Positions 6,918-19,479 of a DNA stretch of 30,360 nucleotides are shown here, in pieces (the stretch's first letter is position 1; each line of letters opens with the position of its first letter). The notes beneath the pieces are model-generated. The model worked only from the letters and a program-made list of their open reading frames with translations, was not told where the DNA came from and did not search any database. The position numbers and the translations under genes were made by a program. The DNA comes from a virus, in IMG/VR virus record IMGVR_UViG_3300017967_000126, positions 1-30,360 of that record. One strand, 5' to 3'.

Positions 6918-7234
6918 TGGGCGAATCTGTCTACGACGAAGACGACGAGACGTGGCCGATTGTCGTTTGTCAATGGCGTGACGCTGCATCGGGTGGCGAG
7001 GGTGGCTGGGTCGACACCGCTACCTACGACCCCCAAGAAACCCATGTGTTGACGGTCGGCTGGGTGTGGCCTCAATGCTTAGAAGGTCACCTGACGATCG
7101 TGTCGTCCGTTATCGGCATCCCGAACGATCCTGACACCGTCGGCGAGATCACCCATGTGCCGCTGGAGAACGTCTGCTCGGTGTACTCGCTCGCAGCTCA
7201 CCTGCCGGTCAACTGGTTTGACGAGAACTTTTAG
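6917..7234 (+). CDS. Hypothetical protein, small acidic beta-rich
   Basis: A 105-residue acidic protein (MGESVYDEDDETWPIVVCQW...), predicted mostly beta from alternating hydrophobics (HVLTVGWVWPQCLEGHLTIVSSVIG) and with a conserved-looking VPLENVCSVYSL ending. Actinophages often carry small proteins of this style near regulatory genes, but I cannot name a family. ATG at 6917 shares a base with the preceding TGA, which decides the start over upstream alternatives. It is the last gene before a strong promoter, so it probably ends a transcription unit, although no terminator is seen. Confidence 0.6.
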   Translation: MGESVYDEDDETWPIVVCQWRDAASGGEGGWVDTATYDPQETHVLTVGWVWPQCLEGHLTIVSSVIGIPNDPDTVGEITHVPLENVCSVYSLAAHLPVNWFDENF

Positions 7235-7236
7235 AC

Positions 7237-7266
7237 TTGACACGCTGTCACACCCTCCTGTAATAC
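7237..7266 (+). promoter_or_regulatory. Sigma-70-type promoter for the exonuclease operon
   Basis: A perfect -35 TTGACA (7237-7242) is followed after 18 bases by TAATAC (7261-7266), a near-consensus -10. Transcription would start near 7273, about 24 bases before the ATG at 7297, leaving only a short leader that includes the AGGAGG ribosome-binding site. It would serve the exonuclease, annealing protein, SSB and following genes. Confidence 0.75.
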
Positions 7267-7291
7267 TGTAGCCAACCCGCTACACAGGAGG
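7254..7291 (+). promoter_or_regulatory. Hairpin that would sequester the exonuclease ribosome-binding site in read-through mRNA
   Basis: CCTCCTG (7254-7260) pairs with CAGGAGG (7285-7291), and inside it TGTAG (7267-7271) pairs with CTACA (7280-7284) around an 8-base loop. The right arm contains the whole AGGAGG Shine-Dalgarno sequence. The left arms overlap the -10 element and lie upstream of the predicted start near 7273. A transcript from the local promoter therefore lacks them and leaves the site open, while a transcript reading through from upstream genes can fold and block translation. The same logic is known for the phage T4 lysozyme gene. Confidence 0.6.
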
Positions 7292-7296
7292 AACCT

Positions 7297-8262
7297 ATGG
7301 GTGCAACCATCATCAAACCGCTGCACGGCAGCATGGAATGGCTGAAGCTCCGCCACCGGGACGACACCGGCTGGCCGGTCGTGTCCGCATCAGACGCAGC
7401 AGCAGTCCACGGCGAGCACCGTTTCAAAACGAAATACGGCCTCGGCATCGACAAGCTGGCCGACGAACCAACGGTCACCGAAACGAACCGTGCGATGGAA
7501 CGCGGCAACCGCCTAGAAGCCACCCTGCTGAACTGGGTTGGCGACGAAATCGGCGAACGAGTGTTCCACCCTGACCGCATGTACGTCTTCCAAGAACGCG
7601 GCGCGTCAATGGTCGCCACCCTCGACGGGTACATCGGCAACAACCCGTTCCTACCCGACGCCATCGTAGAAATCAAAACCTACTCCGGTGTGTTCGACCC
7701 TGACGGCGACTACGGCGACGGATACGGCCCCCTGCCGGCCTACTGGCATTGGCAAGGCGTACAGCAGTCGTTGTGCTGCGACACCGACGAGGTGATCTGG
7801 GGCGTGTTCGACAGCACCCTCGATCTAAAGATCTACCGTCAGTACGTCACCGAGGTAGATCGTGGACGGCACATCGCAGCGGTCGCAGATTTCTGCCGGA
7901 ACATCGCTGTCGGGTTCCTTCCCGATGATTGGCAGGCGAACTACAACGACTTCGCATCGAAGCCTGTCAGCGAACATGTTGCTGATCTAACCGATCTGTC
8001 ATCGGTAATCGCCCAGTTGCGCGAGGTACAGGCAGAGAAGCGTGAACTCAACGAACGTGAGGACGAGCTGAAAGCCAATTTGGCGGCAGCGATGGATGGT
8101 GCTACTGTTGGCACCGTAGACGGCCAGGAGGTGGTCACATGGAAGCAACAGTCACGGATCTCCTTCGACGCGAAGCGGTTCGCCTCGGAGCATCCCGATC
8201 TACACAAGCAATACCAAACCAGCAGCACCTACAGGGTGATGCGAACGAAAGGAACCAAGTAA
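7297..8262 (+). CDS. YqaJ-type (lambda-exonuclease-like) recombination nuclease
   Basis: A 321-residue protein, expected to degrade one strand of double-stranded DNA ends to feed the annealing protein encoded next. Motifs of the PD-(D/E)XK YqaJ fold are in order: SASDAAAVHG (residues 30-39), RGNRLEATLL with E74, ATLDGY with D110, VEIKT with E125 and K127, and YWHWQGVQQ with Q153/Q156. Residues about 240-275 are a charged coiled-coil-like helix (REVQAEKRELNEREDELKANL), followed by a small beta tail (VGTVDGQEVVTWKQQ) found in many phage YqaJ proteins. ATG at 7297 has AGGAGG 5 bases upstream. The stop overlaps the next ATG (TAATG). It is transcribed from the promoter at 7237. Confidence 0.88.
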   Translation: MGATIIKPLHGSMEWLKLRHRDDTGWPVVSASDAAAVHGEHRFKTKYGLGIDKLADEPTVTETNRAMERGNRLEATLLNWVGDEIGERVFHPDRMYVFQERGASMVATLDGYIGNNPFLPDAIVEIKTYSGVFDPDGDYGDGYGPLPAYWHWQGVQQSLCCDTDEVIWGVFDSTLDLKIYRQYVTEVDRGRHIAAVADFCRNIAVGFLPDDWQANYNDFASKPVSEHVADLTDLSSVIAQLREVQAEKRELNEREDELKANLAAAMDGATVGTVDGQEVVTWKQQSRISFDAKRFASEHPDLHKQYQTSSTYRVMRTKGTK

Positions 8263-8903
8263 TGGAAGACAAACTGGCAACCATCTTCGACAAGTACGGG
8301 TCACCTGACCCGAAGTACATCGAACATCTGCCGAAGGGCGGCACAACCCTGGACTTCATCGGTCATGCGCGTATCACGCAATGGCTGTTGGAGATCGACC
8401 CGCTGTGGACTATCGAGCCGGTCGCGTTCGATGAGGGCGGTCTGCCTGCCCGTGTGAAGCACGGCAACATGGTGCAAGCAGGGTTCTGGATGACTGTGTG
8501 CGGTCACCGCCGATACTGTGTCGGCTCTGTCGAGGATCGCAAACCAGACATCGGTAAAGAACTGTTGTCGGACGCGATCCGTAACGGCGCGATGCGTTTC
8601 GGACTGGCACTCGACCTATGGTCAAAGCTTCCTCTCGGTGAGGAACCTGCACAGCCCGCACCCGTCAAGAAGACCGTGAAGAAGACCGCAGCGAAGAAGA
8701 CTGCTGCACCAGCACCCGAGGTGTCCGACGACGAACTTGTCGATCCGGCCACCATCGGAAAATTCAAGGCAGCGTGTGACCTCAACGGTCTGTCACAAGA
8801 TGAGGTCGCCCAACACGCCGGCGTGAACCTCAACCACGTCACCCTCGGCGACATGGATGCCCTCCGTGCGTCGTTCAAAACCCTGAAGGAGCAACTGTCA
8901 TGA
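8262..8903 (+). CDS. Single-strand annealing protein, Rad52/ERF-like
   Basis: A 213-residue protein. The core (about residues 8-125) has the signature of phage annealing proteins: ARITQWLLEIDPLWTIEPV, then GGLPARVKHGNMVQAGFWMTVCGHRRYCVG, then KELLSDAIRNGAMRFGLALDLWSK. It should coat single strands made by the upstream nuclease and anneal them to complementary DNA. A Lys/Ala-rich linker (VKKTVKKTAAKKTAA, about 137-152) joins it to a small C-terminal helical domain (DPATIGKFKAACDLNGLSQDEVAQHAG). Start ATG at 8262 overlaps the exonuclease stop and has GAAAGGA upstream; an in-frame start at 8139 would lie inside the exonuclease gene. The exonuclease-annealing-SSB order is that of RecET-like phage systems. 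Confidence 0.82.
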   Translation: MEDKLATIFDKYGSPDPKYIEHLPKGGTTLDFIGHARITQWLLEIDPLWTIEPVAFDEGGLPARVKHGNMVQAGFWMTVCGHRRYCVGSVEDRKPDIGKELLSDAIRNGAMRFGLALDLWSKLPLGEEPAQPAPVKKTVKKTAAKKTAAPAPEVSDDELVDPATIGKFKAACDLNGLSQDEVAQHAGVNLNHVTLGDMDALRASFKTLKEQLS

Positions 8904-9295
8904 ACAACATCACGGTCACAGGCAACGTGGGGCGCGACCCCGAACTGAAGTACAGCAACGCCGGTATGGCAATCCTCAAGTTCTCTGTTGCGGACACCCG
9001 CAACAAGGGCGACGAGAAAGTCACCCAATGGTGGAATATTGTCTGTTTCAAGGAACTCGCAGAGAATGTTGCTGCGTCGATTGGTAAGGGCACCCGTGTC
9101 CAGGTGATCGGCAAGGTGCAACGCGAGAAGTACGAAGACAAGGAAGGTAACGAGCGTGAGCGCATCGAGATCCTTGCTGACGATGTTGGCATCTCGTTGC
9201 GTTGGGAACCTGCCGGCGAGTCCGCTCCTGTGCGGGGCGAGCCTGTGCTGCGTGGCGCACTCATCGTGACAGACCCGAGCGAGGAACCATTCTGA
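8900..9295 (+). CDS. ssb: Single-stranded DNA-binding protein
   Basis: A 131-residue OB-fold SSB. The N-terminus MNNITVTGNVGRDPELKYSN is a standard SSB opening, followed by ILKFSVADTR, VTQWWNIVCFKELAENVAASIGKGTRVQVIGKVQREKYEDKEG and a strand with ILADDVGISLRW. The C-terminus ends DPSEEPF, a short acidic tip like the DDDIPF end through which SSBs recruit partner proteins. It overlaps the annealing-protein stop by ATGA, with AAGGAG upstream. It should protect single strands during replication and recombination. It is shorter than host SSBs (about 160-180) because the Gly-rich linker is nearly absent. Confidence 0.92.
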   Translation: MNNITVTGNVGRDPELKYSNAGMAILKFSVADTRNKGDEKVTQWWNIVCFKELAENVAASIGKGTRVQVIGKVQREKYEDKEGNERERIEILADDVGISLRWEPAGESAPVRGEPVLRGALIVTDPSEEPF

Positions 9296-9298
9296 GCG

Positions 9299-9445
9299 AT
9301 GGGCAAAGACACCAAAGAATGGCATTGCGCCGTCTGCGGGCAACGCCTCACAACCCACCGCAAAATCATCGGCAAACCAGTCCACACCTGCGCGGCACGA
9401 CCGGGGAAACGCCGATGGGAACTTGATGAGGTGACCCATGTCTAA
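9299..9445 (+). CDS. 48-residue zinc-finger-like microprotein
   Basis: It begins MGKDTKEWHCAVCGQRLTTH and ends CAARPGKRRWELDEVTHV. C10 and C13 form a CxxC, with H20, H29 and C31 as further possible zinc ligands. It starts 3 bases after the ssb stop, at ATG 9299, and overlaps the resolvase-like gene by 8 bases. There is no clear ribosome-binding site (GAGCG only), so translation may be coupled to ssb. Function unknown; a role in nucleic acid binding is only suggested by the Cys/His pattern, basic composition and neighbours. Confidence 0.6.
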   Translation: MGKDTKEWHCAVCGQRLTTHRKIIGKPVHTCAARPGKRRWELDEVTHV

Positions 9446-9782
9446 GAACAAGGCCAAAGGCACAGCGTTTGAAACAGACATCGTCCGTTACCTGCGCGAG
9501 TTCGGGTTCCCGTATGCGGAACGTCGTGCCCTCTCGGGAGTCCACGATTTGGGTGACATCACGGGCACACCAGGACTCGTCTGGGAGTGCAAGAACCATC
9601 AGACCCTGAAACTGTCTGAATGGCTCACCGAAACAGAAGTGGAACGCTTCAACGCAGGAGCCGACTACGGGATACTTGTGGCGAAACGGCGTGGTAAAAG
9701 CTACCCCGGCGAACAGTATGCGATAATGACACTCAGTTCATTAGTCCAACTGTTAGTCGAGGCCGGCTATGGCGTACCGTGA
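9438..9782 (+). CDS. PD-(D/E)XK nuclease, Holliday-junction-resolvase-like
   Basis: A 114-residue protein with the small nuclease fold of archaeal-type resolvases: KGTAFETDIVRYLREFGFP with E12, AERRALSGVHDLGDI with D40, and LVWECKN with E50-x-K52, the last two being the D and ExK metal-binding residues. Proteins of this type in actinophages are thought to resolve branched recombination or replication intermediates. It follows the exonuclease, annealing protein and SSB, which fits recombination and DNA processing before packaging. ATG at 9438 has GAGGTG upstream. The stop overlaps the lipoprotein start (GTGA). Confidence 0.8.
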   Translation: MSKNKAKGTAFETDIVRYLREFGFPYAERRALSGVHDLGDITGTPGLVWECKNHQTLKLSEWLTETEVERFNAGADYGILVAKRRGKSYPGEQYAIMTLSSLVQLLVEAGYGVP

Positions 9783-9990
9783 AACCTATTACCCTGCTGG
9801 TGAGCATGGTCTCCATGTTTACCGTGGGTTGCGGTCAGGCTACGACGATCCCCTCATCGGCACCTGTGTGGACGCTCCCCGCGACGGAAGCAACTACGAC
9901 TACCTCTGCCCCACCTGTGGACGTTACAAACCCTGTAAACATCATTGCCCCAAGTGCGGTAGAAGACTCCCCTGCGTCTTCCACAACTAG
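9769..9990 (+). CDS. Possible overprinted zinc-ribbon protein
   Basis: A 73-residue frame that overlaps the end of the resolvase-like gene and then runs through the first 212 bases of the lipoprotein gene in another frame. Its C-terminal third is Cys/His rich: CPTCGRYKPCKHHCPKCGRRLPC, a layout convincing for a zinc ribbon. GAGGCCGG precedes the ATG. The lipoprotein frame here is a low-complexity Pro/Thr/Ser linker, which tolerates overprinting. Against it: the first 45 residues have no recognisable fold, and both frames share every base. It may be a real overlapping gene, a relic or chance. Confidence 0.35.
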   Translation: MAYRETYYPAGEHGLHVYRGLRSGYDDPLIGTCVDAPRDGSNYDYLCPTCGRYKPCKHHCPKCGRRLPCVFHN

Positions 9991-10342
9991 CACCACAACG
10001 ATTCCCGGTATCGACAATGCGCGATACCCGAGGCTACTCACCCTCGCGCACAGCATCGGCTGGCCTGCCGAATGGCTCCCCACCCTCGACACCATCATCC
10101 ACGGCGAATCCCGAGGCATCGCCGGACTCAACGGGTCAGGCGGGCTAGGCATCACCCAAGTCGAATGGATCATCTGGGGTGACCTCGCCAACGAACTCGG
10201 CCACAGCCGTGCCGACGTGCGCGACAACAACGCAGCCAATTTGGAGGTGGCACTCGCCATCGCCTACATTGCGTTAGACCATTACGACCATTGGTGCCAA
10301 CCCTGGTACCCATCACTTGGAAACTACAGGAACTACTGTTGA
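9779..10342 (+). CDS. Lipoprotein with lytic-transglycosylase-like domain
   Basis: A 187-residue protein. Residues 1-18 form a signal peptide (MKPITLLVSMVSMFTVGC) ending in a lipobox-like TVGC, so C18 would be lipidated and the protein anchored outside the membrane. Residues about 20-78 are a Thr/Ser/Pro linker. Residues about 82-187 resemble the lysozyme-like SLT fold: GESRG with the likely catalytic E110, then GSGGLGITQVEW, and NLEVALAIAYIALDHYDHW. It should act on host peptidoglycan glycan strands. It sits among recombination and regulatory genes, not in the lysis cassette, so it may protect against superinfection or remodel the wall; this is inference. GTG at 9779 overlaps the previous TGA. 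Confidence 0.75.
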   Translation: MKPITLLVSMVSMFTVGCGQATTIPSSAPVWTLPATEATTTTSAPPVDVTNPVNIIAPSAVEDSPASSTTSTTTIPGIDNARYPRLLTLAHSIGWPAEWLPTLDTIIHGESRGIAGLNGSGGLGITQVEWIIWGDLANELGHSRADVRDNNAANLEVALAIAYIALDHYDHWCQPWYPSLGNYRNYC

Positions 10343-10647
10343 ACGAACATCAAGTAACTCTGCCCTCTGCCCCTGAATACGACGAAAAAAATCAAGAGTG
10401 GCGAACCCGTGCAGCTTGCAAAGGTATGGACACCGAACTGTTCTTCCCTGAAAGAGGCGAAAATCTGAAGGTGAAGAAAGCCAAAGAGATATGCGCGAGC
10501 TGCCCAGTACAAACCGAATGCCTCGCCTACGCCCTGCAATGGTCAGACAACCAGATGCTTGGCATCTGGGGAGGCACCTCATGGAAAACCCGCAGAACAA
10601 TGCCTTCTAGCCCTGATGCTATCAAGAACACCTGGTCTCGATACTGA
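10339..10647 (+). CDS. whiB: WhiB-family transcription factor
   Basis: A 102-residue WhiB-like protein, a family found in actinobacteria and their phages. It shows WRTRAACKGMDTELFFPERG, then ICASCPVQTECLAYAL and GIWGGTS. The four iron-sulphur ligands are C27, C52, C55 and C61 in the standard C...CxxC-x5-C arrangement. It should bind a 4Fe-4S cluster and modulate transcription through the host principal sigma factor. The GxWGG turn is followed by KTRR, a basic segment for DNA contact. I choose the TTG at 10339, which overlaps the upstream TGA; no ATG is available before the conserved core. The stop overlaps the second WhiB-like gene. Confidence 0.88.
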   Translation: MNEHQVTLPSAPEYDEKNQEWRTRAACKGMDTELFFPERGENLKVKKAKEICASCPVQTECLAYALQWSDNQMLGIWGGTSWKTRRTMPSSPDAIKNTWSRY

Positions 10648-10928
10648 TGAACTGGTATGACAACGCCGACTGCAAAGACTTAGACACCGACCTGTTTTTC
10701 CCGTTGCGGGCAGGTTCATACGTCGATGCTTACAAGATATGCAACGGTGTTGTGCGAGGTAAGTCGGCTTGTCCGGTGCGTGCCGACTGTCTATTCTTCG
10801 CTTTGTCTTTCCCTGCCGAACTTGATAAGGACGGAATGTTTGGTGGTATGACACCGCCTGAGCGTGCGCGAATCCGCAAAGGGAAGCAAGTGGAAACACC
10901 GAAACCGTATCAAAGGAGAAAACAATGA
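10647..10928 (+). CDS. WhiB-like protein, divergent second copy
   Basis: A 93-residue protein directly after the first WhiB (TGATG overlap). It keeps ADCKDLDTDLFFP, CPVRADCLFFAL and GMFGGMTPPERARIRKGK. Candidate cluster ligands are C9, C32, C42 and C48, but C32 and C42 are separated by nine residues (NGVVRGKSA) rather than the usual two. The C-terminus is strongly basic (KPYQRRKQ), fitting DNA contact. It probably arose by duplication or separate capture. It may have a different cluster stability or act on different promoters; the two could also pair. Overlaps the methyltransferase start by ATGA. Confidence 0.78.
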   Translation: MNWYDNADCKDLDTDLFFPLRAGSYVDAYKICNGVVRGKSACPVRADCLFFALSFPAELDKDGMFGGMTPPERARIRKGKQVETPKPYQRRKQ

Positions 10929-12283
10929 ACCCCACATTCGGGTCGTTGTTCGCAGGAGTTGGCGGGTTCGACCTCGGCTTTGAGGCGGCAGGATACGACT
11001 GCAAGTTTCAGGTTGAATGGGACAAACATTGCCAACAGGTACTTGGCTACCATTGGCCGGACGTACCCCGCTGGGGCGACGTATCCGAAGTCAACGGTGC
11101 CGACCTACCACCCGCAGATGTCATCACCTACGGGTTCCCCTGCCAAGACCTGTCCGTCGCTGGGAAACGCGCTGGCCTCGACGGCGACCGATCCAACCTG
11201 TTCTTTGAAGCAATCCGAATCATCACAGAAATGAGAGAAGCAACTAATGGACTGGCACCAACTTTCGCTGTGGCAGAAAACGTCGTCGGACTCCTCAACG
11301 CCGACGGAGGATCTGCAATGGCCCGATGCCTTGACGCGCTGGCCGAAGCAGGGGCGGTGGCAATCGAATGGTGCGTGCTGGACGCGCAATGGTTCGGAGT
11401 TCCCCAACGACGGCGACGAGTGTTCCTCACAGCTTGTTTCGATCCTGCAACCGCCGAGCGATGTCCCAACCCGTTATTCCCTGTCGCAGAAAGCAGCGCA
11501 AGGAATCCTGCGGAGATCGAGCAGACGGGGCAAGAAGTTGCCTCAACTCTTGGAGGAGGCTCTGGAAGCCGTGGCTGGTCGCCAGACACCGACAGAATGA
11601 CGTTCGTGCCGTTCAGGCAACTCGGGTTTGGTCATTACACCGACGGCGACCAAGGGTCAGCGGTCAAAGCACGCGACTACAAAGACGCAACCGACCTAGT
11701 CGCGTACACCAAAGGCCGACGAGCTCAAACCACCGAAGACTACGAAACATGGGACGAAGACCGTCCAGCACCCACACTCAACGAGTTCGACAACGGCGAC
11801 ATACGCACCACCACAGCCGTCGTGTTCGACCCGTCACGGCGAGATGGGGCACGACCCCAACTAGACGGCACCTGCAACACTTTGACAGGGCACATGGGAA
11901 CCGGCGGCAACAACACACCAATGGTCGCCCAAACCAGAGCAATCGGCATCCAAGGTAAGAACATCGGCCGGCAAGACAAAAACACTACGAACGGGAAAGG
12001 CCACACCGAAGAAGGTGACCCGATGTTCACCCTCACATCCACCGACCAGCACGCAGTAGCCCAACACGACCTGTCAGTACGGCGGTTGACTCCTATCGAA
12101 TGTGAACGTCTTATGGGGTGGCCGGACAACCACACCCTCCACAGGGCAGACGGCAAAGAAGCATCCGACAGCCAACGGTACAAACAATGCGGCAACGGAG
12201 TAGCAGCACCAGTCGCCCAATGGATCGCCAAACACCTCAGAAACGCTGGATTGAGCGTGACTCAGCCCGCTAACACTCCGTGA
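10925..12283 (+). CDS. dcm: DNA (cytosine-5) methyltransferase
   Basis: A 452-residue C5-methyltransferase. Motif I is FGSLFAGVGGFDLGFEAAG (residues 5-23), motif IV GFPCQDLS with catalytic C73, motif VI AENV (117-120), motif VIII VPQRRRRVF (159-167), motif IX RRLTPIECERLMGWPD and motif X GNGVAAPVAQWIAKHL near the end. The region between motifs VIII and IX (about 170-380) should recognise the target, which cannot be predicted here. It would methylate phage DNA, probably against host restriction; no cognate restriction enzyme is seen. ATG at 10925 follows AAAGGAG. A second frame with a conserved-looking product lies within codons 108-225. The last 14 codons contain the first copy of a bipartite DNA repeat. 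Confidence 0.93.
   Translation: MNPTFGSLFAGVGGFDLGFEAAGYDCKFQVEWDKHCQQVLGYHWPDVPRWGDVSEVNGADLPPADVITYGFPCQDLSVAGKRAGLDGDRSNLFFEAIRIITEMREATNGLAPTFAVAENVVGLLNADGGSAMARCLDALAEAGAVAIEWCVLDAQWFGVPQRRRRVFLTACFDPATAERCPNPLFPVAESSARNPAEIEQTGQEVASTLGGGSGSRGWSPDTDRMTFVPFRQLGFGHYTDGDQGSAVKARDYKDATDLVAYTKGRRAQTTEDYETWDEDRPAPTLNEFDNGDIRTTTAVVFDPSRRDGARPQLDGTCNTLTGHMGTGGNNTPMVAQTRAIGIQGKNIGRQDKNTTNGKGHTEEGDPMFTLTSTDQHAVAQHDLSVRRLTPIECERLMGWPDNHTLHRADGKEASDSQRYKQCGNGVAAPVAQWIAKHLRNAGLSVTQPANTP
11247..11600 (+). CDS. Overprinted protein nested in the methyltransferase gene (GILRRxxxRGKxLP type)
   Basis: A 117-residue frame wholly inside the methyltransferase gene, in a different forward frame. Its product is not a typical shadow: LTRWPKQGRWQSNGACWTRNGSEFP is followed by SLSQKAAQGILRRSSRRGKK and LPQLLEEALEAVA. 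I recognise the pattern Y-x-L-S-x-[KR]-A-x2-G-I-L-R-R-x3-R-G-[KR]-x-L-P-x2-L-x2-A-L from proteins annotated next to, or overlapping, phage cytosine methyltransferase genes; this is memory, not a search. The ATG at 11247 has GAGAG upstream. The other frame carries motifs VI and VIII in the same stretch, so both frames appear constrained. Function unknown. Confidence 0.6.
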   Translation: MDWHQLSLWQKTSSDSSTPTEDLQWPDALTRWPKQGRWQSNGACWTRNGSEFPNDGDECSSQLVSILQPPSDVPTRYSLSQKAAQGILRRSSRRGKKLPQLLEEALEAVAGRQTPTE

Positions 12284-12316
12284 CGCTGGATTGAGCGTGA
12301 CCGTCACCACTAACAC
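12243..12316. repeat. Two copies of a bipartite repeat at the end of the methyltransferase gene
   Basis: ACGCTGGATTGAGCGTGAC occurs identically at 12243-12261 and 12283-12301. Each is followed after 8 unconserved bases by CTAACAC (12270-12276 and 12310-12316). The copies are exactly 40 bp apart. The same two blocks with the same spacing recur at 14061-14089. The first copy is inside the coding end of the methyltransferase; the second starts at its stop codon. A protein-binding site, such as an operator or stoperator, is the simplest reading. Confidence 0.8.
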
Positions 12317-12317
12317 G

Positions 12318-12342
12318 CCTGCCGGCCCCCCCGCCGGTCAGG
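12318..12342. other. Imperfect hairpin downstream of the methyltransferase
   Basis: CCTGCCGGC (12318-12326) pairs with GCCGG and CAGG (12333-12342, one T bulged) around six Cs. No U-tract follows on the + strand. It could help end rightward transcription after the methyltransferase or protect the mRNA 3' end, but a factor-independent terminator is not supported. Confidence 0.35.
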
Positions 12343-12393
12343 TCGTCAGCTCATCGCGCCTGGACGGCCAGGTCGTCACCCCCGAAACGCCAA

Positions 12394-12430
12394 ACGACCC
12401 GCCGTCTCGGGAGGTGAGACGACGGGTCGT
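12394..12430 (-). terminator. Hairpin terminator of the leftward operon 13970-12454
   Basis: A 15-bp stem (ACGACCCGCCGTCTC at 12394-12408 and GAGACGACGGGTCGT at 12416-12430, one mismatch) closes a 7-base loop. Read leftward, the stem is followed by TTTGGCGTTTC, a weak U-rich stretch, 24 bases after the last leftward stop codon. On the + strand no U-run follows, so it is mainly assigned to the leftward operon, though it could act in both directions between the converging units. Confidence 0.65.
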
Positions 12431-12453
12431 GTGACCGTGGTTAGGTTGTGGGG

Positions 12454-12522
12454 TTAGGTGTCAATCGCGAGTAGCAGCAGCACCAGCGTTGTCAGCCCGC
12501 CCATGAGCAGCCATTCTCTCAT
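12454..12522 (-). CDS. 22-residue membrane microprotein
   Basis: The frame reads MREWLLMGGLTTLVLLLLAI then DT and stop. Almost the whole peptide is one hydrophobic helix. The ATG overlaps the stop of the preceding leftward gene by ATGA, the junction used by the other genes of this operon, which is the main argument that it is translated. It is the last gene before the terminator. Function unknown; single-helix peptides of this size can modulate membrane proteins or holins. Confidence 0.5.
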   Translation of the reverse strand: MREWLLMGGLTTLVLLLLAIDT

Positions 12523-13034
12523 GGCATATCCGTCAACGTGTCGATGATGCCGATGATCTGCTCCGAGGTCGCACCGTCACGGAACTCGATCCAGATGTAC
12601 GGGGCTTCCGACACCTCGCCACCAACGACCGCGTACACGCCGAGCCGGATAGCACCGTCATCGATGTCGAGCATCATGTGGAAGCCGTCCCACTCAATAT
12701 GGGTGCAGCCCGCATGCTCGTACGAGTTCGGGAACGTCTGGCTGATGTCGGCGCGCACCAGAAACTCGGTAGCGCGCAGAACGAAATCGCTGTCGAACAC
12801 CTCCGCGTCCACCCGATCAAGTGCAACCGCGAGCATGTACTGAGCATCAGCCGAATCGTGTGCGGTTTCTGGCGACCCGAACTTCTCGCCGACATCGATC
12901 AGAAACGTGTTCGCATCGCACACGTCGTGAAGGTCGCCCCACGACCGGCATTGACCGTACCGTGATAGGTCAGCGTTCACCTCGGCGCGCACCATGCGAA
13001 CCAGAGCGTCCGCGTACTGTTCAACCTTGCTCAT
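12519..13034 (-). CDS. Hypothetical protein of leftward operon
   Basis: A 171-residue acidic protein, starting MSKVEQYADALVRMVRAEVN. The middle has FLIDVGEKFGSPETAHDSADAQYMLAVALDRVDAEVF, and the C-terminal part is beta-rich with HIEWDGFHMMLDIDDGAIRLGVYAVVGGEVSEAPYIWIEFRD. No signal peptide, membrane segment or catalytic motif is evident and I do not recognise the family. ATG at 13034 overlaps the stop of the upstream gene (ATGA) and has GGGAGG 7 bases before it; the longer frame to 13121 would run into that gene. It is co-transcribed with its neighbours from the promoter near 14050. Confidence 0.7.
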   Translation of the reverse strand: MSKVEQYADALVRMVRAEVNADLSRYGQCRSWGDLHDVCDANTFLIDVGEKFGSPETAHDSADAQYMLAVALDRVDAEVFDSDFVLRATEFLVRADISQTFPNSYEHAGCTHIEWDGFHMMLDIDDGAIRLGVYAVVGGEVSEAPYIWIEFRDGATSEQIIGIIDTLTDMP

Positions 13035-13351
13035 TGCGCGCCTCCCATCACAGCCTGCGCGTAAATCGACACACACATATGGGCAAACAGAGCCGATTGC
13101 ACATCGATGGGAGCGTCGCACATCGCGTGCTGGTACAAGGCATCCGCTGCCGAATCGTCAGAACAGCCAACGAACCGGTCAACCCAATCGCGAGCCACCG
13201 CGAACGTCGGTGCCAGCCCGTGAAAATGCAGCGCGTATGCGACGATCTCATCGGGTATGCACCCCAGCAGAAAATCGCTATCCCACGCGCCGTCTTCGTT
13301 TCCGTATTCGCGGATAATGTCCGCATACACCTCAGCCATGTTCATCATCAT
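13031..13351 (-). CDS. Hypothetical protein of leftward operon
   Basis: A 106-residue acidic, mostly helical protein (MAEVYADIIREYGNEDGAWDSDFLLGCIPDEIVAYALHFHG). It has three Cys residues and a C-terminal segment HMCVSIYAQAVMGGAQ. No family recognised. Four Met codons lie in the first five positions (MMMNM); the first, at 13351, overlaps the upstream stop by ATGA, and GAGGAG lies 3-6 bases before the first and second, so the start may be 13351 or 13348. It is one of four small genes joined by ATGA overlaps and probably translated by coupling. Confidence 0.7.
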   Translation of the reverse strand: MMMNMAEVYADIIREYGNEDGAWDSDFLLGCIPDEIVAYALHFHGLAPTFAVARDWVDRFVGCSDDSAADALYQHAMCDAPIDVQSALFAHMCVSIYAQAVMGGAQ

Positions 13352-13701
13352 GCACTCCTCACAACAGTTGTCTTCCAGTAATTGTTGAATTGGGCAGGTT
13401 CCAAGCCGAAGCCATCAACCCACCCGTCCTCGCCGAGCGCGAGCAGCACCGCGAGCCTGCCGACCGCAGCCGACAACGACGCGAACTCCTCGCACCAATC
13501 GTTCGCGACACCGTCAGTCCACCACAACCACGCCGTGTGCCCACGGTCAATGTCAGACGGATCACGTTCGACCGTCATCACACACGCCGTTGTGTCGAAC
13601 GCCGACACCTCGACTTGCGCGTAGAACCGCTCAATGCCTGCGCCGTACCCGTGCGACGGTGGGAACTCCCAATCGCCGTCAGTAACGATTCTCTTGCTCA
13701 T
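13348..13701 (-). CDS. Hypothetical protein of leftward operon
   Basis: A 117-residue acidic protein starting MSKRIVTDGDWEFPPSHGYG. It is rich in Trp and has a beta-like centre (AQVEVSAFDTTACVMTVERDPSDID, then AWLWWTDGVANDWCEEFASL) and a helical segment SAAVGRLAVLLALGEDGW. No known domain is recognised. Two GTG codons precede the ATG in frame, but the ATG at 13701 overlaps the upstream TGA and fits the operon's junction pattern; GGGGGTG precedes it. Likely an early or regulatory accessory protein, but this is only inferred from size and position. Confidence 0.68.
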   Translation of the reverse strand: MSKRIVTDGDWEFPPSHGYGAGIERFYAQVEVSAFDTTACVMTVERDPSDIDRGHTAWLWWTDGVANDWCEEFASLSAAVGRLAVLLALGEDGWVDGFGLEPAQFNNYWKTTVVRSA

Positions 13702-13970
13702 CACCACACCCCCATGTGCTCTAAATCTTCCAGCATCGCAGCAGCACCGTCGATGTCGTCACCAAGCAGGTCGTACATGAGCGCAGCACCCGACGCACGG
13801 GCGCGGTCACGATCAGTCGCACGCGGGTTACACCGCGCATGCACCGCCTCGCAGCCATCCGCTTGGAATGCGTGCAACACCTCGGTGAACGTGCTGCCGT
13901 CATCATCGGCAATGTCATGCAGATAATCGAGTTCGATCGGCTCTGCACACTTCGGACAATAGATATCCAT
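13701..13970 (-). CDS. Zinc-binding protein, first gene of leftward operon
   Basis: An 89-residue protein beginning MDIYCPKCAEPIELDYLHDIADDDGSTF, followed by GCEAVHARCNP and a tail with LLGDDIDGAAAMLEDLEHMG. The CxxC at residues 5-8 and later Cys residues (in DGCEAVHARC) look like a zinc site. I recall the same layout (CPKC, LHDxAD, GCEA, CNP, LLGDDxDG) in small proteins of mycobacterium and streptomyces phages, with no assigned function. It has only a weak ribosome-binding site (GGGAACC). The promoter ends about 50 bases upstream, and the repeated GGACTGAGCGTGAT motif lies at its transcription start. Confidence 0.72.
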   Translation of the reverse strand: MDIYCPKCAEPIELDYLHDIADDDGSTFTEVLHAFQADGCEAVHARCNPRATDRDRARASGAALMYDLLGDDIDGAAAMLEDLEHMGVW

Positions 13971-14009
13971 TCTGGTTCCCTTCTAGGTTGCCGACGACCC
14001 CACGTCGCC

Positions 14010-14089
14010 GGACTGAGCGTGATTATTACACCGTCCGCAGGTGATGTCAAACACGACGACGGATTGAGCGTGACCCGAGCCACTAACAC
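14010..14089. repeat. Operator-like bipartite repeats flanking the leftward promoter
   Basis: The complete motif, GGATTGAGCGTGAC (14061-14074) and, 8 bases on, CTAACAC (14083-14089), lies just upstream of the leftward -35. A variant of the first block, GGACTGAGCGTGAT (14010-14023), lies at the -10 and transcription start. Spacing of the complete copy equals that of the two copies near 12.3 kb. Sites on both sides of a promoter suggest binding of a regulator, most simply a repressor. Confidence 0.7.
14023..14050 (-). promoter_or_regulatory. Leftward sigma-70-type promoter for operon 13970-12454
   Basis: Read on the minus strand, a perfect TTGACA (14050-14045) is followed after 16 bases by TAATAA (14028-14023). 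Transcription would begin near 14016, giving a leader of about 45 bases to the ATG at 13970. The bipartite repeat lies on both sides, which suggests regulation. Confidence 0.7.
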
Positions 14090-14100
14090 GCGCATGCGCG

Positions 14101-14177
14101 CCGACCCTCGCCGACCCCGCCTGGAATGTCCGGACAATTCCAGGACACCGACCCCTCACCGACCCCGCACCGACCCC
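14101..14177. repeat. Near-palindrome flanked by helically phased CCGACCC repeats
   Basis: Bases 14120-14144 form a 25-bp near-perfect inverted repeat: CCTGGAATGTCC on the left, GGACAATTCCAGG on the right, with one extra base. CCGACCC occurs at 14101 and 14111 on its left (10 bp apart) and at 14148, 14159 and 14170 on its right (11 bp apart), one per helical turn. The block is non-coding, between a leftward terminator and a leftward promoter. It looks like an assembly site for a DNA-binding protein. Confidence 0.65.
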
Positions 14178-14186
14178 GAAACACGC

Positions 14187-14225
14187 AAAAGGCGCGCGCC
14201 CCGAGGATCCCCCGAGACGCGCGCC
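14187..14225 (-). terminator. Terminator of the leftward operon 15705-14248
   Basis: GGCGCGCG (14191-14198) pairs with CGCGCGCC (14218-14225). Read leftward, the GC-rich stem is followed directly by TTTTGCGTGTTT. It lies 23 bases after the last stop codon of the operon. The loop can extend the pairing through CCGAGG and CCCCGAG segments. Confidence 0.75.
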
Positions 14226-14247
14226 CTAGCGCACTACACCGACCGCG

Positions 14248-14388
14248 CTACCGGTCGCGCCTAGCCCAGATAATGGCACCGATGACGACGCCGATAGCCC
14301 ATATCGACCACCACCCACCCGACGCGATGTCGGACGGTATCGCGCCGTCCGATAGCCGAGATGGAATGACGACTAGCGCGCCGATCAC
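14248..14388 (-). CDS. 46-residue membrane microprotein
   Basis: It starts MIGALVVIPSRLSDGAIPSD and ends with a clear transmembrane segment, WWSIWAIGVVIGAIIWA, followed by RRDR. The start is GTG at 14388, overlapping the stop of the preceding gene by GTGA; there is no other ribosome-binding site, so coupling is likely. The positive C-terminal end after the helix suggests an N-out, C-in orientation. It is the last gene before the terminator. Function unknown. Confidence 0.55.
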   Translation of the reverse strand: MIGALVVIPSRLSDGAIPSDIASGGWWSIWAIGVVIGAIIWARRDR

Positions 14389-14501
14389 CGAGGATCACCG
14401 AACCTGTCAACACCGTCGCGCCTATCCCGACGGTAGGACAACCACCACGCGCACGCTGTGGGCACCGCGAACATCGCCCAGATGAAAAGATCGGTGCCCA
14501 T
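14385..14501 (-). CDS. 38-residue membrane microprotein
   Basis: It starts MGTDLFIWAMFAVPTACAWW, one transmembrane helix, and ends in the charged LSYRRDRRDGVDRFGDPR. ATG at 14501 shares a base with the stop of the GP88-like gene (TGATG) and has GGGGG upstream; a longer frame to 14573 would lie inside that gene. Together with the next gene it makes a pair of single-helix proteins with basic cytoplasmic tails. Function unknown. Confidence 0.6.
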   Translation of the reverse strand: MGTDLFIWAMFAVPTACAWWLSYRRDRRDGVDRFGDPR

Positions 14502-15427
14502 CACGCGCCCCCATGCTTGCGAACGAACGACACACCCGCGCGACCCTCGACGCACACAGCGCACGAATCGCACGCGCCTCGCACCACGTCACCGCGCACC
14601 ATGTCACGACGACCGGACACGCCCGTGATGTACGACGCACCCTTACCGTCGCGCGCGTACTTGCCAGTAGCCGGACATGCCACCACGCGCCCGCTATAGC
14701 CGGTATCGGACAGCATCGCGCGCACATGTTCGGAGTCGTCTCCGAGGATCGCGAGACGCGCACCCCACCGATCAGCGGTAGCGGTAGCGCGCACCACATT
14801 GTCAGGATCCGCTGAGACGTACACCGCGAGGTGATCCGAGCCGACCAGATGGCGCACACGACCGAGCGACCGAGTATAGATCCACGCTCGCAAACCATGA
14901 GACGCGCCGAACTCCGACGACACCGCACGAATAGCACGCGCATACGCCTCAGACGACGCCCGATCGCCTAACCAGCAGTCACCGTCGGAATGCCACCGAA
15001 ACGTCGGCGCGAGACCGTCGCGCGTCTGATGTTCCACCGAATGCCCCACCAAAGCGCGCAGAGCGACGCGCAACCCATCACCACCCGCACACGCGTACAC
15101 ATGGCGCAACGTGTCGAGGTTCGCAACCGCGCCCGACCTAAACGCAACGAACCGCCGTTCCATCGCAGACGCGTAGCAATAGTGCAAGCAGTACGCCGTG
15201 GCACCATCGCACCCACCACCCTCGGACGGTAGCCCAGAGGGAAGATGAAACGCGTTCGCGTAGGTAGCCGTCGGCGCGGTACCCCACACACCGCGAGGCG
15301 CAGTCTTAGCATCCGCATGCAGTCGCAAAGTCTGAGACTCCCCACACGACGGACAGTCAAACGTCACAGCCCGCGCAGACGACGGCAACGACCGACGCAC
15401 CACGACACCGGTAGCGGTAGCCATCAT
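14501..15427 (-). CDS. GP88-like cysteine-rich protein
   Basis: A 308-residue protein. It begins near RRSLPSSARAVTFDCPSCGES (CxxC), then has NAFHLPSGLPSEGGGCDGA followed by TAYCLHYCYA (a C-x6-C-x3-C cluster), FRWHSDGDCW, WIYTRSL, YVSAD, ACPATGKYARDGKG and finally ACDSCAVCVEG. This order of features matches the phage 'gene product 88' family as I remember it, whose function is unknown. The grouped cysteines suggest bound metal, perhaps an iron-sulphur cluster. ATG at 15427 overlaps the upstream stop (ATGA); ATG at 15424 is the alternative. It is the main gene of a leftward operon that also encodes two single-helix membrane proteins. Confidence 0.7.
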   Translation of the reverse strand: MMATATGVVVRRSLPSSARAVTFDCPSCGESQTLRLHADAKTAPRGVWGTAPTATYANAFHLPSGLPSEGGGCDGATAYCLHYCYASAMERRFVAFRSGAVANLDTLRHVYACAGGDGLRVALRALVGHSVEHQTRDGLAPTFRWHSDGDCWLGDRASSEAYARAIRAVSSEFGASHGLRAWIYTRSLGRVRHLVGSDHLAVYVSADPDNVVRATATADRWGARLAILGDDSEHVRAMLSDTGYSGRVVACPATGKYARDGKGASYITGVSGRRDMVRGDVVRGACDSCAVCVEGRAGVSFVRKHGGA

Positions 15428-15705
15428 TCCACCACCCAATCGCACACCGCGAACAATGGCACGCGCAAATCTTCTACATCATCGTCATCGCCGAATATCG
15501 GTCGCACCACCACAAACAACACGCCCGTATCACCGACCGCCCATCCTCGGAAATCTCCCCAGAGAAGAACCTCGCGACCGAACAACTCGACGCGAAACTG
15601 CAACCGCAACCGCACACCGTCGGCAACATCACCGAACAGCCTGGACAAATGCCCCCACGTTCGAGCGCACAACACCGGCACGCCATCATCACGATCATCA
15701 CACAT
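15424..15705 (-). CDS. Hypothetical protein, first gene of leftward GP88 operon
   Basis: A 93-residue acidic protein with strong beta character (GVRLRLQFRVELFGREVLLW, GVLFVVVRPIFGDDDDVEDL, VPLFAVCDWVVE). No family recognised and no signal peptide or helix bundle. GGAGG lies about 11 bases before the ATG at 15705, a long spacing, but no better start is available. A weak possible promoter (TTGTGT, 18 bases, TAGTGT) lies leftward at 15790-15761. The gene's strand is G/T-rich, like the rest of this operon. Confidence 0.6.
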   Translation of the reverse strand: MCDDRDDGVPVLCARTWGHLSRLFGDVADGVRLRLQFRVELFGREVLLWGDFRGWAVGDTGVLFVVVRPIFGDDDDVEDLRVPLFAVCDWVVE

Positions 15706-15812
15706 AACTAACTACCTCCGAATAGTTGACGCGCCCGACCCCACGTCGAGCGACACCCGAACACTACACGCACACCACACCCAACACAAACACCACGCGC
15801 GGAGGTAACCAC

Positions 15813-15904
15813 TAACACACCCCGCGACGCGCTACGCGCGCCCTAGCACCCCACGCAACCACAACCCCGAGATGCCCAACCATCTCGCAAGCCGTCACTA
15901 ACAC
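15813..15904. repeat. Two CTAACACACC half-sites
   Basis: CACTAACACACC occurs at 15811-15822 and CACTAACACACC again at 15896-15907. The core CTAACAC (15813-15819, 15898-15904) is the second block of the bipartite repeat seen at 12.3 and 14.1 kb, but the first block (GGATTGAGCGTGAC) is absent here. They may be weaker sites for the same protein. Confidence 0.5.
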
Positions 15905-15924
15905 ACCAACCCACAACCCACAAC

Positions 15925-15941
15925 CCACGACCTAGGCGTGG
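15925..15941. other. Near-palindrome at the strand-composition switch
   Basis: CCACGACCTAGGCGTGG is symmetric except for one base pair on each side of the CCTAGG centre. Tandem CAACCCA units (15908-15927) precede it, and G/T-rich DNA follows. Its place exactly at the change from C/A-rich to G/T-rich + strand is the reason to record it. Confidence 0.5.
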
Positions 15942-16012
15942 TGCTGTCGGCAGCCCCCGCTCGCGCGCCGAGTGTGGTGTGGTAGTCGGTCGTCGCGACC
16001 TCGCGCCGAGGT

Positions 16013-16119
16013 GGGAGCTGGGGTGGGGTGGGAGTTCACTCTCGGGGTGGGGTGGGGTGCGAGGTTGGCCGGTCGGCGAGGATGGTGGGGTGGTCGGCTC
16101 GTGTTGGGGTGGGGTGGGG
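16013..16119 (+). repeat. G-tract arrays with G-quadruplex potential
   Basis: Runs of three or four Gs lie at 16013, 16020, 16025, 16030, 16044, 16049 and 16054, and again at 16087, 16106, 16111 and 16116, mostly as GGGGT units. Two sets satisfy the rule of four G-runs separated by short loops. All are on the + strand and non-coding. They could fold as DNA or, if transcribed rightward, as RNA. Confidence 0.65.
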
Positions 16120-16499
16120 TGGCACCGAGACGAAGAGGAGCCGAACCGGAGGTGTGCCGAGGCGCCTGGGGGTATGGATGGTTATTAGGTGTGTTCTAGA
16201 TGTGTGGTTTTGTTGTCCGGCTGTTGTGATTGCGCTGGTGTCGAGGTGTTCGCGCAGAGAGGTGTATGCCCCCCCCTCAGGGTGCCTCTGTTCCTGAGTC
16301 CCGCTCGTTGTCGTGGAGCTTCACGTTGTGTGTGTTGTCGTCGTTGCCGGTTCGTGCCTCCCCCGTTTTCGTGGCCGGCAAGAGTTCCTATGGTGTCGTT
16401 GTGGGCGCATGGGGGATCGACCACGTTCCCGTGGGTTCCGTCCCGCCCCGTGCAACTGGGGTACGACCGAGCGGTGCGTGCCGCGTGAGGTTCAGTATA

Positions 16500-17270
16500 T
16501 CAGTTGCATTGGGGGCATGGTGCGGCCCAGCTGCGTCCGTGTTCGTCTTCGGTGCTGATGTAGCGGGTTCCGTCACAGGTGTCGCATTGGGTGGGTTGGG
16601 TGTCGTAGGGTCGCACTTCTTTTTCTGGTGCAGGGAGGGGGGTGTGATCTTTCCAGCGTTCTTGGTTTAGCCAGGTGTATGGGTGCGGGATGTATCTGGG
16701 TTCGGTGTTGTCTTGTCGCCATTGTTTGGTGGCGGTGGTGGCTGCGTCGAGGATTTGGGATGCCATGTTTGTGGCATGTTTGTGCCACCATTGTTCGCAT
16801 TTTTTGCGGGCGATTTTCCGTGGGTAGATTTGCCAGAAGGTGTCGAACGGTGTCTGGTTTATTGGCTCTGGTTCTTTGACTATGGTTACTTCGTCACCAG
16901 CGGGAGGGGGTGTACTCACCAGCGGGAGGGGGGTATCGTCACCAGCGGGAGGGGTATAGTCACCAGCGGGAGGGGTGCTGTGGATAACGTACCTGCTTGA
17001 TAGGTGCCGTTTCGGGTTCTCTGGGTCGCGCCGATGATGGACTGTGACGAACCCTGCTTCAACGAGTTGTTGGACTGCTCGATCAACTGCGCTTGTGCTG
17101 ATCTTTGCTAGCGCGGCGATCCGTGACCGGCCAGGGTGACAGGTGTTGTCGTCTTTGTCGGCGTGCCGTCGCAGCACCCCGTAGACGCGAACTGCGTTAG
17201 AGCTGATGTCCGCGTACAGGACGGACTCGGGGATGATCGCGAAATACTCGGTCGCTGATGCCTGTGACAT
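16500..17270 (-). CDS. Replication initiator-like protein, winged-helix N-domain
   Basis: A 256-residue protein. Residues about 8-98 form a winged-helix domain (ISSNAVRVYGVLRRHADKDDNTCHPGRSRIAALAKISTSAVDRAVQQLVEAGFVTV), the type in phage replisome organisers. Residues 99-127 are a Pro/Ala/Gly/Asp linker. Residues about 140-210 match the common phage replication-protein segment PFDTFWQIYPRK...W...PRYIPHPYTWLNQERW. The C-terminus carries two CxxC pairs (C229/C232, C252/C255), a likely zinc site. It should bind the origin and recruit replication machinery. Four DNA iterons lie in the linker-coding part. ATG at 17270 has GGAAGG upstream. It is leftward, divergent from the terminase gene. Confidence 0.78.
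   Translation of the reverse strand: MSQASATEYFAIIPESVLYADISSNAVRVYGVLRRHADKDDNTCHPGRSRIAALAKISTSAVDRAVQQLVEAGFVTVHHRRDPENPKRHLSSRYVIHSTPPAGDYTPPAGDDTPLPLVSTPPPAGDEVTIVKEPEPINQTPFDTFWQIYPRKIARKKCEQWWHKHATNMASQILDAATTATKQWRQDNTEPRYIPHPYTWLNQERWKDHTPLPAPEKEVRPYDTQPTQCDTCDGTRYISTEDEHGRSWAAPCPQCN
16894..16975. repeat. Four iterons inside the initiator gene, candidate replication origin
   Basis: TCACCAGCGGGAGGGG occurs perfectly at 16894-16909, 16916-16931, 16939-16954 and 16960-16975, spaced 22, 23 and 21 bp, about two helical turns. Three copies encode PPAGD; the copy at 16916 is read in another frame and encodes PLPLVS. So the DNA sequence is kept where the peptide is not. The adjoining 16857-16893 is relatively AT-rich (TTTATTGG...TTCTTTGAC) for this genome. 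The layout is that of lambda, whose origin iterons lie in the middle of gene O. Confidence 0.8.
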
Positions 17271-17310
17271 ATTGTTTGCCTTCCGTTATGAATCGCCACC
17301 CCACAGCGGC

Positions 17311-17341
17311 TTGACTAGACCGTACCACAACGTGCTATGAT
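17311..17341 (+). promoter_or_regulatory. Rightward promoter for terminase and virion genes
   Basis: TTGACT (17311-17316) and TATGAT (17336-17341) are 19 bases apart, and TGC before the -10 makes an extended -10 element. Transcription would start near 17348, giving a leader of about 140 bases before the terminase ATG. The 19-base spacer is slightly long, which the extended -10 could offset. Confidence 0.65.
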
Positions 17342-17361
17342 GGTGCCAGCCCGGAGGTGTT

Positions 17362-17484
17362 TTGTTTGTCCTTCGCCTTCGGGTCAGGCGGTTATTCCTT
17401 TCCCGCCGATACCCCACAAGGGTTGAGCGCGCTGGGGGTTACCCACCTCCTGGCCCCCGGCGCAGCTCCCCTGTGTATCATTGA
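17362..17484 (+). CDS. Possible leader peptide upstream of the terminase gene
   Basis: A 40-codon frame from TTG at 17362, with CGGAGG 4 bases upstream, ends 6 bases before the terminase ATG. The product is Arg/Pro-rich (MFVLRLRVRRLFLSRRYPTR then VERAGGYPPPGPRRSSPVYH). The terminase gene itself has no good ribosome-binding site, so translation of this frame could be coupled to it. The composition may simply reflect GC-rich leader DNA; confidence is low. Confidence 0.25.
   Translation: MFVLRLRVRRLFLSRRYPTRVERAGGYPPPGPRRSSPVYH
17429..17463 (+). promoter_or_regulatory. Stable hairpin in the terminase leader
   Basis: GCGCTGGGGG (17429-17438) pairs with CCCCCGGCGC (17454-17463) with one G-U wobble; the loop is 15 bases. 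No U-tract follows, so it is not a simple terminator. It ends 27 bases before the terminase start and may control leader translation, mRNA stability or elongation. Confidence 0.5.
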
Positions 17485-17490
17485 GTCACG

Positions 17491-19479
17491 ATGGCAGGTA
17501 CAGACAGGTCAGGACGCCGTAACGTCCCACCCGAAGACAAAGCACGCTTCTGGGAAGCCCGCGCAGCCGGCATCTCGATCAAAGAAGCCTGCAAGATCGC
17601 CGGCATTCATTACAACACCGGCCAGAAATGGGATGCGAACCGCCGCAAGATCGAAGCTGAGACCCGTGCCGCCGATTTCGCGGTGAAGAAAGCAGGTGCG
17701 AACTCGGGTCGGGAACGCCGCGAACTCCGCACAATGATCGATGAGGCCGGCGACCTCCCACCAGTCATCCCTTATGAGCGGTTATCGGAACGAGCCAAGC
17801 AAGGATGGGACGATTTCGACTACTTCCGGCGGGTGTACCTCGGTCGAGTCCCGTCACCGTGGCAGGTTGACGCCGCCTACAAGATCGTTGAGTACCTGGA
17901 ATCGGAAGAAAAAGAGTTTCTGGTGCTGAACTGCCCGCCAGGTGCAGGCAAATCTACGCTTTTTCACGACGTGGCAGTCTGGTCAATCGTAAGAAACCGT
18001 GCCATCCGAGTACTCATCGGCTCAATCAGCCAAACATTGGCGAAACAATACTCCCGACGCATCCGCGAAACCTTAGAACGACCCGTCAGGTTCTCCCCCG
18101 ACCCAGAACAAGTACGCAAAGGACTTGTCATGGAACCAGAGGGCTGTTTGGCGCAGGATTACGGGCGGTTCAAACCGTTAGCGTCCGGTTCGTTGTGGCG
18201 CGCCGAAGAATTCGTGGTTGAACAGTACATTCCTGGCGGGTTGGACAACAAAGAACCGACCGTGTCGGCGTACGGCATCGATTCAGAGTTCATCGGTCAC
18301 CGTGCCGACCTCTGCCTGTTCGATGACGTGGCGTCACCGGAGAACGCGAAGGAATCTGTTGCCCGTGACCGTCTGTTGGAACGCTGGGATTCGATGGCCG
18401 AGGCACGTTGCGACCCTGGCGGTGTCGTCGCAGTAGTCGGGCAGCGGCTCGGCCCCGGCGACCTGTACAAACATTGCCTCAACAAAGTCACCTACGAAGA
18501 CGTAGACGACGACGATGACGGTGAAGACATGACTGTCGAAGAAGCACTCGCCGATCCGGTCATGGTGCCCAAATATCATCATCTGATCTACAAGGCGTAC
18601 TACGAGGAACTTGACACCGGCAAAAATTCGCGTAAGAAAACCGCTCCACCGTGGCCTGACGGCCCAATGCTCGACCCCGTGCGCCTCCCGTACAAAGACC
18701 TGTCGTTCATAAAACACAACCAGCCCCAGAAATTCCGTGTCGTCTACCAACAAGAAGACATTGATCTTGATTACCAGCTCGTAGAACGACCTATGTTGAC
18801 AGGCGGGATCGCGTCGGACGGCATCCAGTACACCGGCTGCATTGACAGGGAACGCCAACCAGGGTTCCTGCCACGCGGACTGTCAGCACCGTGGGTCAGC
18901 ATCGTGTCAGTCGACCCGTCACCCGCGAACTTTTGGGGTGTCATCTGGACTGTCATCCAACCCGATCTCGGCCTTTACCATGTGATCGACATTCTCAGGG
19001 TCAAACTGACCGCCGAAGAACTGTTGGGCTACACGATGGCAACAGGCACCTACTCCGGTGTCCTAGAAGACCTGATCGAACGCGGCGAAGACCTCGGCTA
19101 CCCGATCTCCCACATCGTTGTCGAGGTGAACGCGGCACAGCGGTTCCTGCTCGCACACGACTTTGTGCGTCGCTGGCAGGCGTTACGCGGCGTCCAAATC
19201 GTTCCGCACACCACAGCCCGCAACAAGATCGACCAGAACCTTGGTTTGGAAGCGTTGATCCCACCTGTTGTCCGTTCCGGTTCCCTACGTCTACCCACCC
19301 TGTCAGGGAACTGGAAGACGTTGGCGTTGGTGGACGAACTTGTCACCTGGACACGCGACAAAAAGAAAGGTACTGACCTTGCGATGGCGTTGTGGTTCAT
19401 GCTGTTGAACGCACCCAAGTTCACGCAGGCGAAACCGCCGCCCCGGTTGTGGCGACCATCATTCCTTTTGGATGGATAA
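17491..19479 (+). CDS. terL: Terminase large subunit with N-terminal HTH domain
   Basis: A 662-residue packaging motor. Residues about 11-52 are a helix-turn-helix (KARFWEARAAGISIKEACKIAGIHYNTGQKW), as normally found in small terminases. The ATPase has Walker A CPPGAGKST (148-156) and Walker B LCLFDD (274-279), with a VVGQRL motif III. The nuclease domain has VSVDPSP (D475), VVEVNAAQ (E545) and a late TDLAMALWF with the third acidic residue. An acidic insertion (DVDDDDDGED, about 338-347) separates the parts. It cuts concatemeric DNA and drives it into the prohead through the portal encoded next. No separate small terminase gene lies upstream, so the N-terminal domain may recognise the packaging site. 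The stop overlaps a microprotein start. Confidence 0.9.
   Translation: MAGTDRSGRRNVPPEDKARFWEARAAGISIKEACKIAGIHYNTGQKWDANRRKIEAETRAADFAVKKAGANSGRERRELRTMIDEAGDLPPVIPYERLSERAKQGWDDFDYFRRVYLGRVPSPWQVDAAYKIVEYLESEEKEFLVLNCPPGAGKSTLFHDVAVWSIVRNRAIRVLIGSISQTLAKQYSRRIRETLERPVRFSPDPEQVRKGLVMEPEGCLAQDYGRFKPLASGSLWRAEEFVVEQYIPGGLDNKEPTVSAYGIDSEFIGHRADLCLFDDVASPENAKESVARDRLLERWDSMAEARCDPGGVVAVVGQRLGPGDLYKHCLNKVTYEDVDDDDDGEDMTVEEALADPVMVPKYHHLIYKAYYEELDTGKNSRKKTAPPWPDGPMLDPVRLPYKDLSFIKHNQPQKFRVVYQQEDIDLDYQLVERPMLTGGIASDGIQYTGCIDRERQPGFLPRGLSAPWVSIVSVDPSPANFWGVIWTVIQPDLGLYHVIDILRVKLTAEELLGYTMATGTYSGVLEDLIERGEDLGYPISHIVVEVNAAQRFLLAHDFVRRWQALRGVQIVPHTTARNKIDQNLGLEALIPPVVRSGSLRLPTLSGNWKTLALVDELVTWTRDKKKGTDLAMALWFMLLNAPKFTQAKPPPRLWRPSFLLDG

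Follow-up and report, generated by a model that had tools for sequence, protein, structure and literature searches.

The window, as the whole 30,360-base virus record is called here, comes from an uncultured actinobacterial phage. Its rightward genes encode a RecE-like exonuclease, a single-strand annealing protein, a RusA-like resolvase, two WhiB-like proteins (PF02467; 10291-10647 and 10647-10928, plus strand) and a C5 cytosine DNA methylase (PF00145, E 8e-60; 10925-12283, plus strand), the last rightward gene; WhiB is the sole transcription-regulator family identified. Convergent to these genes is a leftward operon on the minus strand (12454-13970), comprising genes at 13970-13701, 13707-13348, 13351-13031 and 13034-12519 and ending in an ORF for a 22-aa hydrophobic peptide (12522-12454); the operon genes have no family matches at the thresholds used, bar a marginal PHROG match of the first gene. 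Hydrophobic peptides of ~20-25 aa are found near the operon end in the window (MREWLLMGGLTTLVLLLLAIDT) and in the relatives L056 (2854-2789), L046 (2402-2337), L221, L025 and L033. A strong hairpin at 12394-12432, between the operon end and a repeat array in and just beyond the methylase gene (array A), is a candidate two-way terminator; it folds at -29.1 and -35.0 kcal/mol (z -3.2 and -6.9), and is missing from the consensus terminator scan because it lacks a T-run.

The leftward promoter that the original prediction placed near 14.0 kb is present as sequence, in the form of a consensus match only: TTGACA-N17-AATAAT at 14050-14022 (minus strand), with 11/12 consensus positions. It is the sole sigma-70-type match in 7000-17600; shuffles give 3.3 such matches on average, and the match alone therefore proves nothing. 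Promoters are also predicted at the corresponding place in relatives. Within the predicted leader lies the element CGACGTGGGGTCG / CGACCCCACGTCG, a small hairpin at 13995-14007 (minus strand), which is also seen at 15736-15748 and near 4110 in L056; in the window CGACCCCACGTCG sits downstream of two leftward start regions.

L056, which was found among terminase relatives, is 89-97% identical to the window over most aligned stretches outside 10.9-16.1 kb; inside these limits the two are almost wholly different, which marks a hypervariable region between mostly conserved flanks. Beyond it, the rep gene (16500-17270) carries TCACCAGCGGGAGGGG four times at 16893-16975, with a spacing of 21-23 bp that is no multiple of 3, and other repeats occupy the same place in the rep genes of L056, L025, L059, L046, L029, L037 and L039; the repeats within the rep gene are likely a lambda-O-like origin inside the initiator gene.

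Repeat copies in the window

The two-block motif GGATTGAGCGTGAC-N8-CTAACAC occurs in three exact copies, all on the plus strand, at 12248-12276, 12288-12316 and 14061-14089, and the 8-base spacer is identical in all of them. The first two, which form array A, lie 40 bp apart, one within the 3'-terminal part of the methylase gene and the other directly after its stop codon; the third, array B, lies on the upstream side of the leftward promoter's -35 box. No further copy with up to 3 mismatches is present in the window, and the chance expectation from 100 dinucleotide shuffles is 0. The equally spaced full copies of the original prediction are thus real, and they do bracket the leftward operon, with 12248 and 12288 at its far end and 14061 at its promoter. 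Its variant first block at the promoter start (14010-14023, plus strand; 12/14 matches, without block 2, at the -10 and start) did not hold up as well: the site ranks 7 in the window and cannot be told from background in a scan with a leave-one-lineage-out model, and its CCGGACT half is part of a leader stretch also present in L056, for which reasons it is treated as a doubtful copy of the motif.

Nor is the bipartite unit what is conserved. Block 2, CACTAACAC, is found next to block 1 in the window and L056 only, and solitary copies without block 1 are seen upstream of the next leftward genes at 15810-15818 and 15896-15904, with four more in L056 and one in L046, all of them on the plus strand. 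It is an element in its own right, specific to lineages.

A model built from relatives only ranks the three window copies 1-2-3 (14061, 12288 and 12248, respectively), and leave-one-lineage-out models recover the copies of each left-out lineage; separation is weaker for L056, where the leave-out model fails to part all four copies cleanly from background. The leave-out scores of the window copies are 20.0, 18.3 and 14.9, compared with simulation maxima that average 13.8 and reach 23.4; since one in 100 simulated sequences can outscore the window copies, the weight rests on clustering and ranks and on no single score.

Arrays in related phages

The exact two-block motif has no match elsewhere in IMG/VR; the core ATTGAGCGYG is conserved in relatives as tandem direct repeats. 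A scan of IMG/VR with the tandem-core pattern returned 27 stretches, 11 of which are relatives by shared early genes (L046, L094, L106, L111, L150, L211, L216, L221, L222, L223 and L224, where L094 is a contig of L056 and L211 a contig of L039); L225 is a further relative on the same grounds. The array-bearing relatives have recombination, WhiB, replication and terminase genes in common with the window. Of the remaining stretches, most gave no match to those window genes that were searched; a looser tandem pattern gave mostly chance hits among the matches listed, and in bacterial genomes the tandem core gave scattered single matches in unrelated bacteria, again among the matches listed. No near relative of the region was found in INPHARED, where the portal is only 24% identical to two records. 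A GP88 query led to one distant locus, and L004-L009, reached by way of the first operon gene, are distant phages that lack the motif.

Two locations recur. Array A is found where the rightward early genes end, in most cases with a strong hairpin directly after it, and array B overlaps the leftward operon promoter or is placed upstream of it; both are present in L056, L046, L221, L039, L111, L106, L222 and L224. A perfect TTGACA box is found at B in the window, L056, L039, L111, L106, L222 and L224; the promoter matches at B in L046 and L221 are weak and were read by eye. Each phage carries its own version of the repeat: L056 has two copies of ATTGMGCGCGGG at each end of the leftward operon, L046 has two copies of AAGATTGAGCGCGAC at one end and two of AAGAGCGAGCGCGA at the other, and L039 has CAGTATTGAGCGCGAGC and variants at both ends. 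All core copies in the window and relatives are on one strand, which runs along transcription at the rightward-gene end and against it at the leftward promoter. The arrays are clusters of 2-5 sites, 1.5-3.7 kb apart from A to B, with 17 to 51 bp between copies and no clear helical phasing; B varies in its placement relative to the promoter and may cover the -10, lie on the spacer, or sit upstream by tens of bases. The window has 3 core matches in its 30 kb, and the 39 kb record G001 has 6; outside the arrays, core copies are almost lacking from near-complete relatives. Within one phage, A and B match each other in sequence better than in any re-pairing across five lineages (1 of 120); with the set widened to eight phages, including four close kin, the figure is 24 of 40,320 pairings.

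Random scatter of the motif, or its absence from orthologous promoters, would have spoken against regulatory sites; same-strand direct repeats of the core instead recur in relatives at both the leftward promoter and the operon far end, as operators or transcript-stopping sites predict. The exceptions are L150 and L037, which have array A without a recognisable array B, and L025, L033, L029, L050 and L059, relatives without the arrays. L225 has no B in the 2.3 kb beyond A; the L216 record ends just after A and the L223 record ends before any B could show. A second core copy in L037 at 6678, within apparent coding sequence, is probably due to chance, and a repeat in L025 (4538/7662) was judged so because its second copy is inside an ORF. 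In L150, L037 and L225 array copies lie in frame inside the WhiB reading frame, where they encode repeated IERE/IARE peptides in a linker before the C-terminal extension. Type II hammerhead ribozymes (RF02276) were seen in L033 (7404-7472), L050 (4713-4780), L059 (532-598 and 1154-1221), L004 and L005; they occur in none of the nine array-bearing loci searched and in three of the six array-less relatives searched.

Function, regulator and rival explanations

The repeats are probably binding sites of a regulator of the leftward operon, given that relatives have matched versions of their own at the two corresponding positions. The sites would be asymmetric operators of ~16 bp, with the core ATTGAGCGYGR, read by one sequence-specific DNA-binding regulator. 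At array B this regulator would most likely repress the leftward early promoter, whose -10 is covered by a copy in some relatives; at array A, between the last rightward gene and the convergent junction, the same regulator would most likely block or insulate transcription, as stoperators do. This arrangement of asymmetric operator arrays, with B repressing and A acting as a stoperator-like block under a single regulator, is considered somewhat more probable than otherwise. The operator reading of the original prediction is supported in part, by the core arrays at the leftward promoter and the operon far end, and not by the bipartite unit or the 14010 copy. Several observations sit poorly with operators: the variable placement of B does not fit one tight architecture, A occurs without B in L150 and L037, several relatives lack both arrays, some copies are coding and in frame, and the A-B matching could stem from copying between the arrays instead of a common protein.

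Simple copying is the strongest alternative, and the copies in frame inside WhiB reading frames keep it so; here non-regulatory repeats would be spread and kept alike by tandem duplication or gene conversion without a dedicated binding protein. Copies within one phage have 19-23 bp in common including their flanks (array A of L046 contains GACACGCAAGATTGAGCGCGACC twice), tandem copy numbers vary, the in-frame copies of L150, L037 and L225 are readily accommodated, and within-phage A-B matching would also be predicted. This explanation is rated rather unlikely, as core, strand and the two locations recur across lineages whose operons have no gene in common, near-complete relatives are almost without copies elsewhere, and random spread would not hit the leftward promoter repeatedly. 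Paired clusters at both operon ends at such distances would also suit looping, in which the regulator bridges A and B and closes the operon in a loop like that of lambda CI between OR and OL; the phages with A and no B, together with copy spacings that lack clear helical phasing, make it quite unlikely.

Regulation at the RNA level is very doubtful: array A in the 3' end of the rightward mRNA would pair with leftward transcripts bearing the complementary array B, since opposed transcripts make the array RNAs complementary, and the doubtful 14010 copy would fall in the leftward leader; however, B is mostly upstream of the predicted start and so is not transcribed by its own promoter, and the RNA of array A is not notably structured (z -1.7). 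The high variability of the operon and the direct repeats on both its flanks could point to recombination sites for exchange of the operon as a cassette, a reading that is very improbable and was rejected because homology breaks do not coincide with the arrays; L039 and L111 keep 94-97% identity through both arrays and on into the operon, the replacement between the window and L056 reaches well beyond both arrays (10.9-16.1 kb), and a search for integrase (PF00589) was empty in the window and in the relatives covered, all possibly incomplete records and three of them 39-40 kb long. One-orientation direct repeats do look iteron-like, but replication iterons or a partition site are the least credible of the explanations weighed: the arrays are 2-5 kb from the rep gene, which bears its own direct repeats as it does in relatives, for which reason the iteron reading was rejected, and ParB is absent from the window and the relatives searched (records that may be incomplete).

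If the repeats are operators, the regulator is sought outside the leftward operon: no gene is common to the operons of all array-bearing phages, so a binder encoded within the operon was rejected, and the protein would be encoded elsewhere or supplied by the host. No obvious repressor gene had been noted in the window from the sequence, and a search for HTH_3 repressors was empty both there and in seven relatives. Candidates are a WhiB-like protein of the phage and a host factor. WhiB is a possible binder judging by gene content; its genes turned up in every one of the eight records searched, array-bearing or not, and their presence does not track the arrays. A fuller proposal, considered unlikely, is that a WhiB-like iron-sulphur protein, alone or with a partner, reads the asymmetric site and serves both to repress the promoter and to block transcription or anchor a loop at the operon far end, in phages without detected lysogeny genes; if true, a stoperator-like system outside an immunity context would be new. 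A literature search found no report of such repeats together with WhiB in actinobacteriophages. The arrays, if operators, would offer a clean test for recognition of specific DNA sites by phage WhiB-like proteins. Were the arrays operators, uncultured actinobacterial phages would use paired-array control of a leftward early operon, of which no description was found in the literature searched; the arrays stay while the operon genes differ between phages, which suggests a control layer that is conserved and a cargo that is not.

Comparison with known repeat systems

Replication iterons are tandem asymmetric direct repeats, as are the arrays; the arrays differ in lying at a promoter and a convergent junction, with a separate repeat set inside the replication gene. 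Phage lambda OL and OR consist of near-palindromic sites to which a known repressor, CI, binds as a dimer; CI loops DNA between OR and OL. Both systems have two clusters of tandem sites ~2 kb apart, one of them over the leftward early promoter; the sites described here are instead asymmetric, and there are candidates only for the protein that would bind them. As in promoter operators generally, where sites overlap or adjoin a promoter, a predicted leftward promoter is found at B in the window and relatives.

The SAS/ESAS of Cluster K mycobacteriophages are conserved short repeats, nearly all in one orientation, whose function is not known (PMC3203893). The arrays share the conservation and single orientation; SAS accompany the translation starts of numerous genes and ESAS form inverted repeats, in contrast to the arrays, whose direct repeats lie at a single promoter and a single operon end. 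The closest parallel in logic is with the sites of Cluster A mycobacteriophages such as L5 and Bxb1, which are short, asymmetric and in one orientation, lie both at the early leftward promoter and away from promoters, and in each phage take a variant of a common consensus (PMC6550527). The window and its relatives likewise display an asymmetric core of ~13 bp in one orientation, sites at the leftward promoter and away from it, and phage-specific variants of one consensus. Cluster A genomes carry 20-30 sites throughout, as opposed to 3 to ~9 in two clusters here; their systems include a dedicated immunity repressor and an integrase or parABS, whereas searches for HTH_3, integrase and ParB matches were empty in the window and relatives searched, and the strand here is fixed and does not follow the direction of transcription. 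Because site number, orientation rule and the lysogeny genes tested do not match, the arrays are not filed as a Cluster A immunity system; they are most likely operators, with the array at the operon far end resembling a stoperator.
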